DNA of 64,000 bases from Thermococcus litoralis DSM 5473 (GCF_000246985.2 NC_022084.1:1410817-1474816), one strand, 5' to 3'; positions 35,796 to 43,516 are shown, counted from the stretch's first letter. Notes: a model not told the origin generated them from the letters alone. Numbers and translations are program-made.

Positions 35796-35869
35796 ATATT
35801 CACCAAGTGAAAATCTACAAAAATGATTTGTTTTTTATTTTTGGGTTGATGAATAAAGAGGTGTGTGAT

Positions 35870-36877
35870 ATGGAAAAGGTGGAGGAAATCCCTAAAGAAA
35901 CCCTGCTTGAGATATACAAAACTATGCACAAGATACGAACTTACGAGGAAACACTTGCAGAGTGGTACTACAAGGGGAAAACCCCAAGGTTTGACATATC
36001 TGCGGGCCCAATTCCCGGGGAGCTTCATTTATCTTCCGGCCAGGAATCTGCAGCAGTTGGAGTTTGTATGCACCTAAAACCTGAAGATGCCTTAATAGGG
36101 ACACACAGGGCTCATCACTTTGCGATTGCTAAGGGAGTTGATTTGAAGAAAATGACTGCCGAGATTTTTGGAAAAGCTACAGGTCTATCAAGGGGTAAAG
36201 GAGGCCATATGCACCTTTTTGATGCAAATGTTAACTTCAGCTGCAGTGGAATTGTAGGAGCAAGCTTCCCACAAGCCGTTGGTGTGGGAATAGCAGCAAA
36301 ACTGAAGGGAGAAGATTACGTTGCGGTTGCCGTTGGTGGAGACGGTGCAGCTAATCAAGGGACTTTCCATGAGGCTCTTAATTTAGCCGCAATCTGGAAG
36401 CTACCAGTGATCTTTGTGATAGAAGACAACAGCTGGGCTATTTCAGTCCCAAAGGAAAAATCAACTGCAGTCGCGAAGAACAGTGAAAGGGCTGCAGGTT
36501 ATGGAATTCCGGGAGTTAGTGTGGATGGAGCTGATGTCATAGCGGTTTATGAAGTGGCAAAAGAAGCTGTTAAGAGAGCGAGAAGAGGAGAAGGGCCAAG
36601 TTTGATTGAGATAAAAGTTTATAGGCTCAGAGGTCATTTTGAAGGAGATCCACAGCACTATAGACCCAAAGAGGACTTAGAGCTTGCCAGGCAAAAGGAT
36701 CCACTCATGAACTTCGAAAAGCTCCTTCTAGAAAAGGGCATTGCAACTGAAGATGAGCTTAACAAGATCAAGGAAGAGAATATCAGAGAAGTACAGGAGG
36801 CTATTGACTTTGCGGTAAACAGCCCGTATCCAGAGCCTGAAGAAGCATTAAAGGGCGTTTTTACGGGGGGTGAATGA
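35870..36877 (+). CDS. 2-oxo acid/acetoin dehydrogenase E1 alpha subunit (set A)
   Basis: 335 residues. Thiamin diphosphate-dependent decarboxylase subunit. The ThDP motif is GGDGAANQGTFHEALNLAAI...N (GDG to the Asn of EDNSWA), with GTHRAHHFAIAKG and the phosphorylation-loop region YRLRGHFEGDPQHYR. E1 decarboxylates a 2-oxo acid or cleaves acetoin, passing the acyl group to lipoamide. ATG 35870 follows AGAGGTGTG; an upstream ATG at 35849 is in frame. It is the first gene of E1 alpha-E1 beta-lipoyl protein-lipoate ligase. Context favours acetoin dehydrogenase, but pyruvate or branched-chain acids remain possible. Confidence 0.85.
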   Translation: MEKVEEIPKETLLEIYKTMHKIRTYEETLAEWYYKGKTPRFDISAGPIPGELHLSSGQESAAVGVCMHLKPEDALIGTHRAHHFAIAKGVDLKKMTAEIFGKATGLSRGKGGHMHLFDANVNFSCSGIVGASFPQAVGVGIAAKLKGEDYVAVAVGGDGAANQGTFHEALNLAAIWKLPVIFVIEDNSWAISVPKEKSTAVAKNSERAAGYGIPGVSVDGADVIAVYEVAKEAVKRARRGEGPSLIEIKVYRLRGHFEGDPQHYRPKEDLELARQKDPLMNFEKLLLEKGIATEDELNKIKEENIREVQEAIDFAVNSPYPEPEEALKGVFTGGE

Positions 36878-36878
36878 G

Positions 36879-37877
36879 ATGGCAAGAAAACTCCCCATGT
36901 ATAAGGCAATCTCAGAAGCAATAGCTCAGGAAATGGAGAGAGATGAAAACGTGTTTGTCATGGGTGAGGATATCGGGGCATATGGGGGCATATTTGGCGC
37001 AACAACTGGACTTTTAGAGAAATTTGGGCCTGAGAGAGTTAGAGACACTCCGATAAGTGAAGCAGCATTTATAGGGGCTGCTTTGGGGGCGGCATCAAAA
37101 GGAATGAGACCAATAGTCGAGCTTATGTTTGTGGACTTCTTTGGAGTTGCCATGGATCAGATTTACAACCACATAGCCAAAGCCCACTACATGTCCGGCG
37201 GACAAGTGAAAATGCCAGTAGTGATAATGACCGCCATGGGTGGAGGATACAGCGACGCTGCTCAGCATTCCCAATGTCTCTACGGGCTCTTTGCACACGT
37301 TCCGGGTTTGAAGATAGTAATTCCCTCGAACTCATATGACGCGAAGGGCTTGATGATCTCGGCGATTAGAGATGACAACCCAGTTATGTACTTCTTCCAC
37401 AAGGGACTCATGGGACTTGGATGGATGCCCTCGCCACCAGAGGCAACGGTTGAGGTTCCAGAAGAGCCTTATACAGTACCTATCGGAGAGGCAAAAGTAG
37501 TCAGAGAGGGAAGCGATGTCACCATTGTAGGAGTTGCTAAAATGGTATACGAGGCATTATGGGCTGCAGAAGAGCTTGAAAAAGAAGGCATTAGTGCGGA
37601 GGTAATCGACCTAAGAACTCTGGTTCCCTTGGACAAGAAGACCCTCGTGAACTCCGTAAAGAAGACTGGACGTTTAGTTGTAGTGGATGAGGACTACAGA
37701 AGCTACGGGATGAGTGGAGAAGTCATTGCTACGGTTGTTGAGAATGGAATATCTTTGGAAGCACCTCCCGTAAGAGTGGCCTATCCTGATGTTCCCGTTC
37801 CCTACAGCAGAGTTCTGGAGAGATACGTTCTTCCAGACAAGGAGAAGATAATCAACGCCGTAAAGAGTATAATGTGA
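36879..37877 (+). CDS. 2-oxo acid/acetoin dehydrogenase E1 beta subunit (set A)
   Basis: 332 residues, transketolase pyrimidine-binding domain then C-terminal domain. Typical motifs: VFVMGEDIGAYGGIFG, RVRDTPISEAAFIGAALGAA, and DVTIVGVAKMVYEALWAAEE. The active-site region QHSQCLYGLFAHVPGLK is intact. ATG 36879 follows GGGGGGTGA, 1 nt after the alpha subunit stop. Forms the alpha2beta2 E1 with the preceding gene. Confidence 0.85.
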   Translation: MARKLPMYKAISEAIAQEMERDENVFVMGEDIGAYGGIFGATTGLLEKFGPERVRDTPISEAAFIGAALGAASKGMRPIVELMFVDFFGVAMDQIYNHIAKAHYMSGGQVKMPVVIMTAMGGGYSDAAQHSQCLYGLFAHVPGLKIVIPSNSYDAKGLMISAIRDDNPVMYFFHKGLMGLGWMPSPPEATVEVPEEPYTVPIGEAKVVREGSDVTIVGVAKMVYEALWAAEELEKEGISAEVIDLRTLVPLDKKTLVNSVKKTGRLVVVDEDYRSYGMSGEVIATVVENGISLEAPPVRVAYPDVPVPYSRVLERYVLPDKEKIINAVKSIM

Positions 37878-37895: not shown

Positions 37896-38132
37896 ATGGA
37901 AGTAGAGGTGAAAGTGCCAATAGTTAGTCAAGAAGATAAAAAAGGTGTAATAAACCAGTGGTACAAAAGCGATGGGGATGAAGTAAAGGAAGGTGAGGAG
38001 ATAGCAGAGGTCATGATAGAAAAAGTTACCGTTATCGTAAAGGCGCCAGCAAGTGGAAAGCTTAGAATACTCGTTCCTGAAAATGAAGAAATATCACAGG
38101 GACAGGTAATAGCAGTTGTAGAAACTGAGTAG
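37896..38132 (+). CDS. Free-standing lipoyl-domain protein (set A)
   Basis: 78 residues: exactly one biotinyl/lipoyl domain. The acceptor is K43 in VMIEKVTVIVKAPASGKL at the hairpin turn, with the symmetrical GDEVKEGEEIAEV and NEEISQGQVIAVV halves. In bacteria this domain is fused to the N-terminus of E2; here it is a separate protein, like an acyl carrier. It lies after E1 beta and before a lipoate ligase, which could modify it. Confidence 0.85.
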   Translation: MEVEVKVPIVSQEDKKGVINQWYKSDGDEVKEGEEIAEVMIEKVTVIVKAPASGKLRILVPENEEISQGQVIAVVETE

Positions 38133-38172
38133 CTTTCAAAACCTTTAATTATTTTTCTTTCCAAATTTTTAC

Positions 38173-38955
38173 ATGCCATTGAGGGTTCTATTTCATGAAT
38201 ACTGGAATCCTTATCTCAACATTGCCTTCGAAGAAAGCCTTGCAAGGAGCAGGAGTGTTGATCTTGTTGGAGATACCCTTAGGATATGGAGAAACGAAAA
38301 TTCTCTGATTTTAGGTCGTTTTAGAAAAGTTGGGGAGGATGTCAATTTAGGCAATGCCAGTAGATTTGGATTCCCAATAGTGAGGCGCTTCACAGGAGGA
38401 GGGACAGTGTACCATGACAGTGGATGCCTGAATTATTCTATTGCAATCAAGAAAAATGTAAAGTACCCACTGGACTATATGTATAGAGTCCTCCTGAAAG
38501 GCACTCTTCTTGCGCTGAAAAAACTTGGAGCACGGGCATACCTAAAGAATACCAACGATGTCGTGGTTAATGAGAGAAAAGTTTCGGGGACTGCTGCGGC
38601 TATGAGGTGGGGAGTTCTTTTTCTTCATGGTTCGATTTTAATAAACTCAAATCTGCAAATGCTCTATCTCCTTTTAAGAATTCCAAAGGTCCACAACTTT
38701 GATCCGGTTAAGTATCGGGTGGCGAACCTCTCTGCATTTGTAGAGACTTCCACAGAAGAAGTTGCTGATGCCCTAATTTGGGGTTATTCAAGAGTGTTGT
38801 CTACCTCTCCTACTTTTGAAGAGCCTTTAAAAGAGGAACTAAAGTTGGCCAATCTTTTGTATAAAGAGAAATATTCTAGGGAGGAATGGAACTTTAAAGG
38901 CCTTGTTGACAATAAGGGAGAACTTAATAAAAAGGTAAAAGACATCCTCAGCTAA
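38173..38955 (+). CDS. Lipoate-protein ligase A family protein
   Basis: 260 residues. Signature motifs: LIWRNENSLILGRF (as RIWRNENS), RRFTGGGTVYHDSGCLNYS and NDVVVNERKVSGTAAAMR, whose lysine contacts lipoyl-AMP. Attaches lipoate or octanoate to lipoyl domains. The C-terminal accessory domain is short (KFKGLVDNKGELNKK), so a separate LplB-type partner might be needed. Context: 40 nt after the lipoyl protein; its natural targets are the two lipoyl proteins in this cluster. The last 4 nt overlap the convergent acoX. Confidence 0.8.
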   Translation: MPLRVLFHEYWNPYLNIAFEESLARSRSVDLVGDTLRIWRNENSLILGRFRKVGEDVNLGNASRFGFPIVRRFTGGGTVYHDSGCLNYSIAIKKNVKYPLDYMYRVLLKGTLLALKKLGARAYLKNTNDVVVNERKVSGTAAAMRWGVLFLHGSILINSNLQMLYLLLRIPKVHNFDPVKYRVANLSAFVETSTEEVADALIWGYSRVLSTSPTFEEPLKEELKLANLLYKEKYSREEWNFKGLVDNKGELNKKVKDILS

Positions 38956-39932
38956 TCGTCAAAGAAGCCTCTCTCAGCAGCTATTTTCAGTGTCTTTCTA
39001 TAGTCAATAACTCTCGGCCCATTCCGCGTTATTTTTGCAGTTATCTCCCCCCTCATTTCAGTCTCTCTTTCTCCATCAAGAGCCAAAAGTGAGGGAGATG
39101 TTTTCAGTTCGATTTCCTCGTTCAGATTCAAGATTTTTGTTTCTTTGACTTTTATTCTTCTAAATATTCCAGGAGCTATGGGCACTTTTATGCCTTTTTC
39201 TCCTCCAAGCTCCACATATATTCCCAAGTCGTCTCTTTCAGTTATCTCCTTCAAAATTCCGGGAATTGAACTCAGCCCAATGTTGTATGGGGAAGAGATA
39301 CTGGCTACAACCTCTCTCAAGTATTCAGGTTTCCAAACTGCTTTGGAGCCTTTAAAGGAATGTAGTGTGGCAACAGCATCTACGAGAGCAATATCTTTGA
39401 GTCTGCCATCTTCATAAAGTTCAATTCTTTTTGTTTTGTAAGTTCCTTCGGTGGGTTTAACAATGCCAGTGGCTATTGCTGAAACAGCAGCCCCGGCTAT
39501 TGTGGCCTCTATCATGTATGGAAAGACGTTGTTGGTGCCTGTGGAGATGGGCATTATGGGGATTTCTCCAGAGGCTTTTGCGACAAGTCTGTTTGTCCCA
39601 TCCCCTCCGATGACAATTATTGTCTTAACTTTGTCCTTCATGAGCTCAGTTGCCTTTAATGTGTCCCTCCAATCTCCAAAAACCTTCATTGGGAGCATCT
39701 CAACTTCCATGGATATATGCTCCCCCACGGCATGAAGGGCAGCGGGAACTATTCCAAAGGTTTCCGGCATTGCTAAAACTTTTTCAACTCCTAACTCCTG
39801 CATTATTAGAAGAAGTCTTTTTACGATGTTAACTTTCTCCATGTTGTCAAAAACACTTGCATGGGCAATTAAACGCCTTATATCTCTGCCAGATTCAGGG
39901 TTTGCTATTATCCCTACAGTTACTTTTCCCAT
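38952..39932 (-). CDS. acoX: AcoX, NAD kinase-like protein of acetoin clusters
   Basis: 326 residues of the ATP-NAD kinase fold: VIGGDGTNRLVAKA supplies the GGDG motif and ISTGTNNVFP the second nucleotide contact. AcoX is encoded in acetoin dehydrogenase operons of bacteria; its reaction is not established. ATG 39932 follows AAGGAGATGA; ATG 39941 has no spacing. The gene overlaps the Lin0512-family gene upstream. This gene is the strongest indicator that the cluster uses acetoin. Confidence 0.85.
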   Translation of the reverse strand: MGKVTVGIIANPESGRDIRRLIAHASVFDNMEKVNIVKRLLLIMQELGVEKVLAMPETFGIVPAALHAVGEHISMEVEMLPMKVFGDWRDTLKATELMKDKVKTIIVIGGDGTNRLVAKASGEIPIMPISTGTNNVFPYMIEATIAGAAVSAIATGIVKPTEGTYKTKRIELYEDGRLKDIALVDAVATLHSFKGSKAVWKPEYLREVVASISSPYNIGLSSIPGILKEITERDDLGIYVELGGEKGIKVPIAPGIFRRIKVKETKILNLNEEIELKTSPSLLALDGERETEMRGEITAKITRNGPRVIDYRKTLKIAAERGFFDD

Positions 39933-39937
39933 AACGT

Positions 39938-40306
39938 TCATCTCCTTACATAGAGGGTAATAAACGCTATTGCCACCAATATTTCGTTTGTTTTATCTCC
40001 AAATTCTTTAAGAGCTATTCCAGGCCCTTTTAGACCGCCTTCGACAATCTTAACAACTTTTTCACACGGTAGGGGGATTACTTCTTTGACTTTCTCTATA
40101 TTGACTCTTTGAGAATAGGGCACCCCTATGAGGATTTCTGCTTTTATATCTCTCTCAAGATCAAGCTCAAAGAGCTCCAAGAGCCCAACAGTGCAAACCC
40201 TTGTTATTGCATCTTTTATGGCCTTTATTGCAGCCTTAGTGGGATCTTGACCATGCTGGTCTATCCCCATCCCTATCTCGATGACATATCTTCTCCATTC
40301 ACTCAC
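39938..40306 (-). CDS. Lin0512-family protein
   Basis: About 122 residues, alpha/beta. RRYVIEIGMGIDQHGQDPTK (starting region) and KAIKDAITRVCTVGLLELFE match the Lin0512 family, which accompanies acoX-type genes in bacteria; function unknown. GTG 40306 has GGAGG at 9 nt; TTG 40312 is an alternative. It overlaps the E2 gene and acoX by a few nt, so the three are tightly coupled. Confidence 0.7.
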   Translation of the reverse strand: MSEWRRYVIEIGMGIDQHGQDPTKAAIKAIKDAITRVCTVGLLELFELDLERDIKAEILIGVPYSQRVNIEKVKEVIPLPCEKVVKIVEGGLKGPGIALKEFGDKTNEILVAIAFITLYVRR

Positions 40307-41114
40307 TTTCAAAGACCTCCTCTGGGTGCTCCAGGTAATATTTAACTCTCTCCAAGAACCTCGCGGCTGGAGCTCCGTCTATTGCCCTGTGGTCAAATGT
40401 CAAAGAAAGCGTCATCACGCTGGCAATTTTTATCTCTCCATTCTCCACTATCGGCTTTTGGGTTATCCTGTTCAAACCTAAAATCGCAATTTGGGGAGGG
40501 TTAATTATTGGTGTAAACGAATCAACTCCGAACATTCCAAGGTTCGTTACTGTGAAGGTTCCCCCAACAAAGTCCTTCTCCTTAAGTCTGCCGCTTTTTG
40601 CTCTCTCAACTATGTCCGCATAATCCTGTAAGAGTTCTTCGAGGGATTTTTTGTCTACGTCCCTAATTACTGGCGTAATAAGGCCTATTGGACTGTCAAC
40701 AGCCACGTTTATGTTTATGTTATCATAAATCATTATCTTTCCTTCTTCCATTGATGCATTGACCTCTATGAAATCCCTTATGGCTTTTGCAATGCATTTT
40801 AACATGAGAACTGTATAAGATGGCTTTTCTCCAAGCTTTTCAGTGAGCTTCTTCCTCATTTCAATAAGGTTATCTATCTTTGTTTCCATATTAAGGGTTA
40901 CGTGCACAGCTTCCCTGTAGCTCTTTGAAAGCCTCTCTGCTATAACCTTCCTGATCCCAAACACTTTTCTCTCTTCTCTCACCTTTGGAAGGAAGTGTTC
41001 TCGTATATATTTTTCGAGGTCTTCAAGCGTAACTTCGCCATTGGGACCAGAACCTTTTATTTTTGAAAGATCGATATCGTATTGCTCGGCTATCGTTCTT
41101 ATCTCTTCACTCAC
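40299..41114 (-). CDS. Dihydrolipoamide acyltransferase (E2) core without lipoyl domain
   Basis: 271 residues. The N-terminus is a peripheral subunit-binding domain (IAEQYDIDLSKIKGSGPNGE), which binds E1 or E3. The rest is the CAT-like catalytic domain ending in SLTFDHRAIDGAPAARFLE with catalytic His and Asp. There is no lipoyl domain; the usual N-terminal part is a separate gene just upstream (41119). GTG 41114 (or TTG 41117) follows GAGGGGAG. As the only E2 core in the window it probably serves both E1 sets, fed by the free lipoyl proteins. Confidence 0.85.
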   Translation of the reverse strand: MSEEIRTIAEQYDIDLSKIKGSGPNGEVTLEDLEKYIREHFLPKVREERKVFGIRKVIAERLSKSYREAVHVTLNMETKIDNLIEMRKKLTEKLGEKPSYTVLMLKCIAKAIRDFIEVNASMEEGKIMIYDNININVAVDSPIGLITPVIRDVDKKSLEELLQDYADIVERAKSGRLKEKDFVGGTFTVTNLGMFGVDSFTPIINPPQIAILGLNRITQKPIVENGEIKIASVMTLSLTFDHRAIDGAPAARFLERVKYYLEHPEEVFESE

Positions 41115-41118
41115 CAAT

Positions 41119-41367
41119 TTAGCTCCCCTCGGTTTCTATTATTGCTATTGGCTCCCCTACGGGGACCTCATCTCCAACATCGTGGAGTTTCTCCACTAGA
41201 ACCCCTGATGCTGGAGCTTTGACCTCTCCAGTTAGTTTCTCGGACTCGACTATAGCAATTACTTCATCTTTCTCCACCATCTCTCCAACATTTTTCTTCC
41301 ACTCTACGATAGTGCCCTTTTTCATTGTCATACCTAATTTTGGCATAATGACATTTATTCTTGACAT
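41119..41367 (-). CDS. Free-standing lipoyl-domain protein (set B)
   Basis: 82 residues, one lipoyl domain. Starts INVIMPKLGMTMKKGTIVEW like the E2 N-terminus of acetoin/pyruvate dehydrogenases; acceptor K44 in VESEKLTGEVKAPASG. It ends 2-5 nt before the E2 core, the place where the linker would be in a fused E2. Either a gene split or an ancestral separate arrangement. First gene of the minus-strand operon lipoyl-E2-Lin0512-acoX. Confidence 0.85.
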   Translation of the reverse strand: MSRINVIMPKLGMTMKKGTIVEWKKNVGEMVEKDEVIAIVESEKLTGEVKAPASGVLVEKLHDVGDEVPVGEPIAIIETEGS

Positions 41368-41546: not shown

Positions 41547-42545
41547 ATGGCGGAGATACCTAAGGAAAAGTTATTGTGGATGTACGAAACCATGGTTAAG
41601 ATAAGAGAGCATGAAGAAAGGGTTGCAGAGCTTTTTGCCCAAGGAAAAATACCGGGCTTTGTTCATCTCTACATTGGAGAAGAAGCTGTCGCAACAGGAG
41701 TAATGGCCCACCTAAGGAAAGAGGACTTCATAACAAGTACTCACAGGGGACATGGTCACTTTATTGCAAAAGGCGGTAACATCAAGGCATCAATGGCCGA
41801 ACTCTTTGGTAAGGCTACAGGGATATGTAAAGGAAAAGGTGGCTCAATGCACATAGCTGATTTGGATGTAGGAGAATTGGGAGCAAACGGTATAGTGGGT
41901 GGAGGTATTCCCCACGCAGTCGGAGCCGCATTGGGCATAAAGCTAAATGGCCTGGATAACGTTGCAGTGGCTTTCTTTGGAGATGGTGCCTCTAATCAAC
42001 AAAACTTCCATGAGGCAATAAATCTTGCCGCAATATGGAAGCTTCCAGTAGTTTTTGTGTGTGAAAACAACCTCTACCAAATATCCCTTCCCTATTCAAA
42101 ACAGCAAGCCATAAAGAGCGTCGCTGAGAGGGCTGCTGCTTATGGCATTCCGGGAGTTAGTGTAGACGGCCAAGATGTCTTTGCGGTTTATGAAGTCGCT
42201 AAAGAAGCGATAGAGAGGGCTAGGAATGGAGAAGGACCAACACTAATAGAGGCAAAGACCTATAGGTTTAAAGGACACTTTGAAGGCGATCCCCAAATAT
42301 ATAGGTCAAAGGAGGAAGTGGAATGGTGGAAGAAGAACAAGGATCCAATAGTTCTCTTTGAGAAAACAGTCCTTGAGAAGGGTCTCCTAACTAAAGAAGA
42401 GCTTGATACTATTAGGGAAAGAGTAAAAAGAGAGATAGAAGAGTCTATCAAGTTTGCAGAGGAAAGCCCATGGCCCAAGCCGGAGGAAGTTCTTGAAGAT
42501 GTGTTCTCGACCCCAACCAAGGGGGTGTTAGTATGGCAGTGGTGA
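41547..42545 (+). CDS. 2-oxo acid/acetoin dehydrogenase E1 alpha subunit (set B)
   Basis: 332 residues, paralogous to the set A subunit. ThDP motif FGDGASNQQNFHEAINLAAI and Asn in CENNLYQIS; STHRGHGHFIAKG and YRFKGHFEGDPQIYR as in the family. The sequence GFVHLYIGEEAVATGVMAHL replaces GELHLSSGQESAAVGVCMHL of set A, so substrate pockets may differ. GAGGCG precedes the ATG. Its end overlaps E1 beta by 13 nt. Confidence 0.85.
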   Translation: MAEIPKEKLLWMYETMVKIREHEERVAELFAQGKIPGFVHLYIGEEAVATGVMAHLRKEDFITSTHRGHGHFIAKGGNIKASMAELFGKATGICKGKGGSMHIADLDVGELGANGIVGGGIPHAVGAALGIKLNGLDNVAVAFFGDGASNQQNFHEAINLAAIWKLPVVFVCENNLYQISLPYSKQQAIKSVAERAAAYGIPGVSVDGQDVFAVYEVAKEAIERARNGEGPTLIEAKTYRFKGHFEGDPQIYRSKEEVEWWKKNKDPIVLFEKTVLEKGLLTKEELDTIRERVKREIEESIKFAEESPWPKPEEVLEDVFSTPTKGVLVWQW

Positions 42546-43516
42546 GGGAGATCACTTTTGCAGAGGCGCTCAATGAGGCTTTGGACTACGAAATGTCAAA
42601 AGATCAAAAAGTTGTCGTGATGGGCGAAGATGTTGGAAGATATGGAGGAATCTTTGGTGTCACGAAAGGACTCATAGAAAAGTACGGAGAAGAAAGAGTA
42701 AGGGATACCCCAATAGCAGAGAGCGGTTTCATTGGAACTGGGGTAGGAGCTGCTGCATCAGGTTTGTTGAGACCTGTTGTAGAGTTAATGTTTATAGACT
42801 TCCTTGGCGTAGCTTATGACCAAATCTACAACCAAGCAGCAAAGATGAGATACATGTTTGGTGGAAAGGCCAAGATTCCAATAGTGATTAGAACGGTCTC
42901 TGGAGCGGGTGCAAGCGCCGCTGCCCAACACTCACAATCCCTACACGCTCTCTTTATCCACGTTCCGGGATTGAAGGTAGTGTACCCCTCCACGCCCTAC
43001 GATGCCAAAGGGCTTTTGATATCTTCAATTGAAGACGATGATCCAGTTATTTTCATTGAACATAAGATGCTTTATGGAATTAAGGGCCCAGTTCCGGAAG
43101 ATCCTTATTCAATACCTCTTGGAGAGGCTGATGTGAAGAAGGAAGGTAAGGATGTTACGGTTGTTGCGACAGCTTTGATGGTTCACAGGGCTTTAGAAGT
43201 TGCAAACAAGCTTGAAGAGGAAGGAATAAGCGTTGAAGTCATTGACCCAAGAACCCTCGTACCTCTGGATGAAGAGACAATACTTAACTCAATAAAGAAG
43301 ACTGGAAGGCTCGTTGTTGTTGATGAGGCATATCCAAGATGCAGCTTTGCCACGGACATAGCAGCTTTGGCCGTTAACAAGGCCTTTGATAACCTAAAAG
43401 CTCCTGTTAAGCTTGTCACAGCCCCAGCAACTCCAGTTCCGTTCAGTCCGGCCTTAGAAAAGGAATGGATGCCTAGTACTGAGAAAATTGAAAAAGCCAT
43501 TAGAGATGTTCTCTGA
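42533..43516 (+). CDS. 2-oxo acid/acetoin dehydrogenase E1 beta subunit (set B)
   Basis: 327 residues. VVVMGEDVGRYGGIFGVTKG, RVRDTPIAESGFIGTGVGAA, QHSQSLHALFIHVPGLK and DVTVVATALMVHRALEVAN match the E1 beta fold and the set A protein. Coupled to E1 alpha by a 13-nt overlap and followed by DUF6506 and OsmC genes in the same direction. Confidence 0.85.
   Translation: MAVVREITFAEALNEALDYEMSKDQKVVVMGEDVGRYGGIFGVTKGLIEKYGEERVRDTPIAESGFIGTGVGAAASGLLRPVVELMFIDFLGVAYDQIYNQAAKMRYMFGGKAKIPIVIRTVSGAGASAAAQHSQSLHALFIHVPGLKVVYPSTPYDAKGLLISSIEDDDPVIFIEHKMLYGIKGPVPEDPYSIPLGEADVKKEGKDVTVVATALMVHRALEVANKLEEEGISVEVIDPRTLVPLDEETILNSIKKTGRLVVVDEAYPRCSFATDIAALAVNKAFDNLKAPVKLVTAPATPVPFSPALEKEWMPSTEKIEKAIRDVL

Follow-up and report, generated by a model that had tools for sequence, protein, structure and literature searches.

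Separately encoded lipoyl proteins and an E2 core without a lipoyl domain in Thermococcus litoralis, an architecture conserved in Thermococcaceae that lack a canonical E3

The example usually given for substrate channelling by a tethered swinging arm is that of the 2-oxoacid dehydrogenase complexes. Here we describe a gene cluster in a 64,000-nucleotide stretch of the Thermococcus litoralis DSM 5473 genome (NC_022084.1:1410817-1474816; hereafter the window, from whose first letter positions are counted) in which the acyltransferase component of such a system, E2, has no lipoyl domain, and small lipoyl proteins are encoded by genes of their own. The cluster, at 35.8 to 43.5 kb, holds two alpha/beta pairs of the 2-oxoacid dehydrogenase component E1, the lipoyl proteins LIP1 and LIP2, an LplA-type ligase, an AcoX-like protein, a Lin0512 protein and one E2 (Table 1). 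The split E2 is a genuine, conserved architecture rather than a product of faulty sequencing. A textbook enzyme is run here in a manner that has received little study and that is met again in halophilic archaea and marine bacteria. The functions of all proteins in the cluster are assigned from sequence, and on this basis we consider it probable (about 0.7) that LIP1 and LIP2 are E1-specific lipoyl carriers that act in trans on the shared E2 of a 2-oxoacid (or acetoin) dehydrogenase.

The initial annotation of the window had listed two E1s, two lipoyl proteins and one E2 core, and this parts list proved correct. The two separately encoded single-domain lipoyl proteins, with lipoyl lysines K43 and K44, are open reading frames (ORFs) at the places given for them, as is the lipoyl-less E2, and both match Biotin_lipoyl; the lipoyl lysine does not vary among 20 aligned sequences of LIP1, LIP2 and bacterial and haloarchaeal free lipoyl proteins. 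The LIP1 gene starts 18 nucleotides downstream of E1-1 beta. It had also been proposed that the E2 core begins at its subunit-binding domain, and a Pfam scan bears this out, with E3_binding at residues 7 to 35 (E = 7e-9), 2-oxoacid_dh at residues 48 to 269 (E = 9.5e-81), no Biotin_lipoyl and nothing ahead of the subunit-binding domain. A small correction concerns the start codon, as the reading frame permits either TTG at 41117 or GTG at 41114. In an AlphaFold2 model of E2 (mean pLDDT, 87.5), helices 4-12 and 31-41 form the subunit-binding domain, behind which lies the acyltransferase core; the top Foldseek matches in the PDB are E2 cores, and the catalytic motif is unchanged across an alignment of 20 sequences. 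The charge of the subunit-binding domain matters for the binding of E3 and E1. Over 35 residues the net charge is -3 in T. litoralis, compared with +6 in Escherichia coli E2p and +1 in Pyrobaculum, and it ranges from -1 to -6 across all 20 split E2s.

The T. litoralis genome (2,215,172 bases, one contig) was compared with those of its family in a sample of 94 Thermococcaceae genomes, 20 of which encode an E2 of the split type. Each of the 20 has a single E2 core, every full-length copy measures approximately 272 amino acids within an open frame of 277 to 287, and LIP2, E2, AcoX and LplA are linked wherever the contig extends. At each of the 19 readable LIP2-E2 junctions, LIP2 ends with TAA or TGA and E2 follows in a shifted frame, starting 4, 7, 8, 13 or 14 nucleotides past the first base of the LIP2 stop codon. 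The adjacency of the two genes in different frames is what a once-fused gene broken by a sequencing error, a local frameshift or pseudogene formation might look like, and the initial annotation had named a single fused gene in relatives as the finding that would expose such a break. None of the 20 Thermococcaceae genomes with this E2 has a fused gene; spacers and frames vary among them, no linker sequence is present, and the proteins are conserved, leaving a broken gene with practically no likelihood. A true frameshift of this kind does occur elsewhere, in the E2 of Haloferax massiliensis (L140:6589-7869; G, C and L numbers are our handles), where it lies in the linker between the lipoyl domain and the core and where related Haloferax strains have one fused gene; unlike in the Thermococcaceae split, the linker is still present there.

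The short spacers might also suggest that recoding, by frameshifting or stop codon read-through, yields a joined LIP2-E2 protein, and one contig fits this idea, since LIP2 and E2 share a frame with a single TAA between them. However, the frame offset of E2 relative to LIP2 is +1 in most junctions and +2 in L038, L039 and L046, the spacers differ in length and the stop codons in identity, and no common slippery site was seen at the junctions. As the offset is not constant, recoding was rejected as very improbable. The contig with the common frame (L101:163-1248) belongs to a metagenome-assembled genome (MAG) labelled Thermotoga, the binning of which may be wrong.

The numbers of lipoyl proteins and E1s were compared in E2-positive genomes that are at least 95% complete and in which whole genes could be counted. 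E1-alpha was scored above 280 bits, and free lipoyl proteins were identified by position and score, with matches to biotin carriers and GcvH excluded; G016 and G064, which are broken or fragmentary, were left out. Free lipoyl proteins equal E1-alphas in number in 12 of 12 countable genomes, each of which has one E2 core: the ratio is 2:2 in eight, including T. litoralis, 3:3 in G084 and 1:1 in G087, G089 and G090. Two further genomes fit this pattern, namely, G093, with one E1, one whole lipoyl protein and LIP1 remnants, and G047, with three E1s, three lipoyl proteins and a fragment at a contig end. E1-betas of these families occur in 22 genomes, 20 of which have E2, and the two E2-negative genomes are 73% and 77% complete. 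Judged from gene content, every E1 appears to come with a lipoyl protein of its own and to share the one E2, and the one-to-one matching lends support to the carrier role proposed for the lipoyl proteins in the initial annotation, by which they would serve the E1s and the E2 core. The third set in G084 consists of LIP3, TRAP-transporter-like genes (named by eye) and E1-3. Third E1 pairs with a lipoyl protein of their own lie at L036:1053-6243 and on G047 C55 (L157), and at L036 TRAP-transporter-like genes stand between the two, which may hint at a substrate that is imported.

In the cycle that we propose, E1-1 would be paired with LIP1 and E1-2 with LIP2. Each E1 would decarboxylate its substrate and reductively acylate the lipoyl group on its cognate lipoyl protein, which would then visit the sole E2 core, where the acyl group would be moved to coenzyme A (CoA). 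The dihydrolipoyl protein would be reoxidized by a protein other than canonical E3, and the LplA-type enzyme of the cluster would attach, or help to attach, lipoate. It is of note in this regard that E1 reductively acetylates an isolated lipoyl domain and not free lipoic acid (PMC6270654). The action of the carriers in trans, the use of one E2 by both E1s, the substrates and the identity of the reoxidant are all predictions from gene content and sequence comparison.

Several points weigh against this proposal. Sequence cannot separate diffusible lipoyl proteins from docked ones; E2 retains a subunit-binding domain that is predicted to be folded, so the assembly may be partly tethered; and without E3, the cycle has no known last step in Thermococcaceae. 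A distinctly less probable alternative is that LIP1 and LIP2 are docked stably but noncovalently on E1 or on the subunit-binding domain of E2, in what would be a usual complex with a clipped linker. This would agree with the retention and confident modelling of the subunit-binding domain and with gene order, as LIP2 always adjoins E2 on its upstream side and LIP1 follows E1-1 beta. On the other hand, nothing in the lipoyl proteins outside the lipoyl domain would provide a segment for docking, and haloarchaeal and alphaproteobacterial E2s of split systems also lack the subunit-binding domain, so that no such docking site is needed there. A very unlikely alternative is that the lipoyl proteins serve another process, such as sulfur or one-carbon chemistry, and that E2 is an acyltransferase working on its own. 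GcvH and LbpA are indeed free lipoate carriers that act in other processes (PMC6067878), but the numbers of lipoyl proteins track those of E1, LIP2 scores only 23.8 bits against the GcvH family model (cutoff, 117), and no sHdr genes were noticed beside the lipoyl proteins.

The absence of a canonical E3 (dihydrolipoyl dehydrogenase) was overlooked in the initial annotation. In a profile search, no protein from the 94 Thermococcaceae genomes exceeded the TIGR01350 cutoff, which 11 of 14 controls passed. The best candidate in T. litoralis is the mercuric reductase MerA, with 575 bits against the MerA model and 379 bits against lipoamide_DH (cutoff, 409). The gene (G000:C1:1359729-1361093; L050:4724-6121) thus encodes the protein nearest to E3 in the genome, below the E3 cutoff, and by eye its neighbours are a small heavy-metal-associated-domain-like protein and a YHS-type protein. 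MerA was rejected as the E3, since the gene is missing from several complete E2-positive genomes; in G031, G034, G078 and G087, which are complete and E2 positive, matches to the E3 model reach only approximately 147 to 157 bits. A hidden E3 was likewise rejected, as the three Pyr_redox_dim proteins are MerA, a CoA-disulfide reductase and a protein of the CoA-disulfide reductase/NADH oxidase type. Among the recurring neighbours of the cluster, inspected by eye from their sequences and not by profile search, no recognizable disulfide oxidoreductase was found that could substitute for E3. It is conceivable that a divergent flavoprotein may stand in for it.

Beyond Thermococcaceae, relatives were sought by a scan of genome contigs and ORF analysis, and the architecture is wider than had been supposed. 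It had been called unusual, but it is not unique: operons of E1-alpha, E1-beta, a free lipoyl protein and a lipoyl-less E2 occur in haloarchaea and alphaproteobacteria. Closest to the Thermococcaceae E2 are E2s with a subunit-binding domain and core and no lipoyl domain, 62 to 70% identical, in three Desulfurococcales MAGs and in MAGs labelled Caldisericaceae and Thermotoga, for which binning may be wrong; a free lipoyl protein lies directly upstream of E2 in four of these five and 3 kb away in the fifth (L096). In this last, a Desulfurococcales MAG, a 679-amino-acid open frame (L096:3757-5793) covers an E1-beta of the E1-1 type, is long enough to include alpha as well and is probably an E1 alpha/beta fusion; it adjoins a free LIP1-like protein, AcoX and LplA. 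In Halovenus, Halomicroarcula, Haloarcula and two Halobellus genomes, the operon comprises E1-alpha, E1-beta, a free lipoyl protein and an E2 of the catalytic domain only, and a fused E2 of the ordinary kind is found in other haloarchaea and in a Bacillota MAG.

Among plasmids, E1-1 beta has its nearest relatives in alphaproteobacteria and haloarchaea, and 11 of the 12 listed were inspected. A separate lipoyl gene adjoins E1-beta in all 11 records and is followed in 9 by an E2 of 210 to 259 amino acids; the remaining two, from Haladaptatus, have no E2 beside E1-beta and the lipoyl gene. In these two records (L163 and L173), the genes after E1-alpha, E1-beta and the lipoyl protein encode a regulator and a high-potential iron-sulfur protein. 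Five of five haloarchaeal and alphaproteobacterial E2s tested with Pfam have the catalytic domain only. A catalytic-only E2 in Sphingobium (L167:3998-4693), 50% identical to that of Phaeobacter, lies among acyl-CoA genes, and the annotation shows no lipoyl gene next to it.

Phylogenetic trees were built for E1-beta and for E2. In the E1-beta tree, Thermococcaceae E1-1 beta, one Desulfurococcales sequence and all 12 sequences from free-lipoyl operons lie on one side of a well-supported branch (100/98), and E1-2 beta and the E1-betas associated with fused E2s lie outside this group. In the E2 tree, each of the three split types is a supported group (100/99, 100/98 and 100/99), and they lie apart among fused E2s; a single clade of split E2s was rejected (p-AU = 3e-5). 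Since split E2s do not form one clade, splitting has recurred, with the caveat that long branches and uneven composition were flagged in a few rows. Read most simply, the trees would mean that an old module of E1 and a free lipoyl protein was joined by different E2s that had lost their lipoyl domain. Such a loss is best supported for haloarchaea, because their split E2 nests inside fused ones.

How the Thermococcaceae system relates to others is best seen by comparison. A canonical E2 consists of lipoyl domain, subunit-binding domain and core; the Thermococcaceae E2 shares the subunit-binding domain, the catalytic core with HxxxDG and the core fold found in the PDB, and E1 alpha and beta are present, but it differs in having no lipoyl domain or linker, an acidic subunit-binding domain and no E3. 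The split operons of haloarchaea and alphaproteobacteria (Halobaculum, Haloarcula, Phaeobacter, Roseibium and Paracoccus, by automatic annotation) are alike in their E1-1 beta clade, free lipoyl protein and lipoyl-less E2, and in Phaeobacter also in an adjacent lipoate-protein ligase. They are unlike it in that their E2 is a catalytic domain only and stands apart in the E2 tree, and in that the haloarchaeal hosts have E3; the Thermococcaceae E2 retains its subunit-binding domain and sits with LIP2, and no catalytic-only E2 is adjacent. Wanner and Soppa reportedly described in 2002 an oadh2 operon of Haloferax volcanii with E1 genes and a gene for an unattached lipoyl domain; by comparison, Thermococcaceae lack any fused E2 and lack E3. 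The actinobacterial E1o/E2 protein OdhA of Corynebacterium uses the lipoyl domains of AceF (PMC7568260) and thus resembles the present case in that an acyltransferase core is served by the lipoyl domains of another polypeptide, but those domains are tethered to AceF, whereas the Thermococcaceae ones are tethered to nothing. GcvH and LbpA are also small separate lipoyl proteins, but of another family and with partners other than E1 and E2. A 2014 survey of archaeal lipoylation already recognized a class of single-domain lipoyl proteins in archaea and listed three Thermococcus species with E2; we found in it no remark on the Thermococcus E2 being without a lipoyl domain (PMC3904984), and a search of the literature accessible to us found no publication describing the split E2 system of Thermococcaceae.

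The remaining genes of the cluster are summarized in Table 1. The true start of E1-1 alpha probably lies further in than the GTG used there. The genes for the AcoX-like and Lin0512 proteins (38952-40312 in the window) overlap each other and E2 and form one operon with it, and both also occur in an acetoin-type cluster of Bacillota (L112); the name AcoX is presumed, from the position beside acetoin-type genes there. Homologues of E1 and AcoX are found in acetoin-type gene clusters, namely, L112, which has Lin0512, AcoX, E1 at 65/59% identity and a fused E2, and a cluster of Enterococcus, in which the gene 57% identical to E1-2 alpha adjoins lpdA and a gene for 2,3-butanediol dehydrogenase.

Table 1. 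Features of the cluster, in window coordinates
Feature	Position	Strand	Basis and remarks
E1-1 alpha, thiamine-diphosphate 2-oxoacid dehydrogenase	35807..36877	plus	Pfam E1_dh, E 3.4e-86; 356 amino acids from GTG
E1-1 beta	36870..37877	plus	Transket_pyr/Transketolase_C; E1-beta subfamily adjoining free lipoyl genes, tree clade 100/98
LIP1, single-domain lipoyl protein	37896..38132	plus	Biotin_lipoyl, E 2.2e-13; 78 amino acids, lipoyl lysine K43
Lipoate-protein ligase A-type enzyme (catalytic part)	38173..38955	plus	LplA-B_cat, E 2.4e-43; kept in cluster
AcoX-like protein (NAD-kinase/DAGK fold)	38952..39941	minus	Pfam NAD_kinase, E 1.7e-10; last gene of E2 operon
Lin0512-family protein	39938..40312	minus	Pfam PF09585, E 1.7e-31; overlaps both neighbours
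E2 without lipoyl domain	40299..41117	minus	Subunit-binding domain (residues ~3-41) and catalytic core, HRAIDG motif; Pfam, AlphaFold2, 20 genomes
LIP2, single-domain lipoyl protein	41119..41367	minus	Biotin_lipoyl, E 8.6e-17; 82 amino acids, lipoyl lysine K44; directly upstream of E2
E1-2 alpha	41547..42545	plus	Pfam E1_dh, E 1.1e-97; acetoin-dehydrogenase type by neighbourhood
E1-2 beta	42533..43516	plus	Transket_pyr, E 2.1e-46

Taken together, these observations lead us to a broader, tentative proposal, to which we give somewhat less than even odds. In such a lipoyl relay, an E1 subfamily of archaea and bacteria would work with an untethered lipoyl protein, its E2 partners would have lost the lipoyl domain repeatedly, and the anaerobic Thermococcaceae would run the system without E3, another redox protein reoxidizing the carrier. 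If true, this would bring the logic of acyl carrier proteins to a complex that textbooks use to illustrate tethered swinging arms. A family that has no E3 and yet uses lipoyl proteins, GcvH included, points to a dihydrolipoyl oxidant other than canonical E3 in hyperthermophilic archaea, and a natural system in which the arm has been cut loose, widely kept and reached repeatedly, would allow a direct test of what tethering buys.

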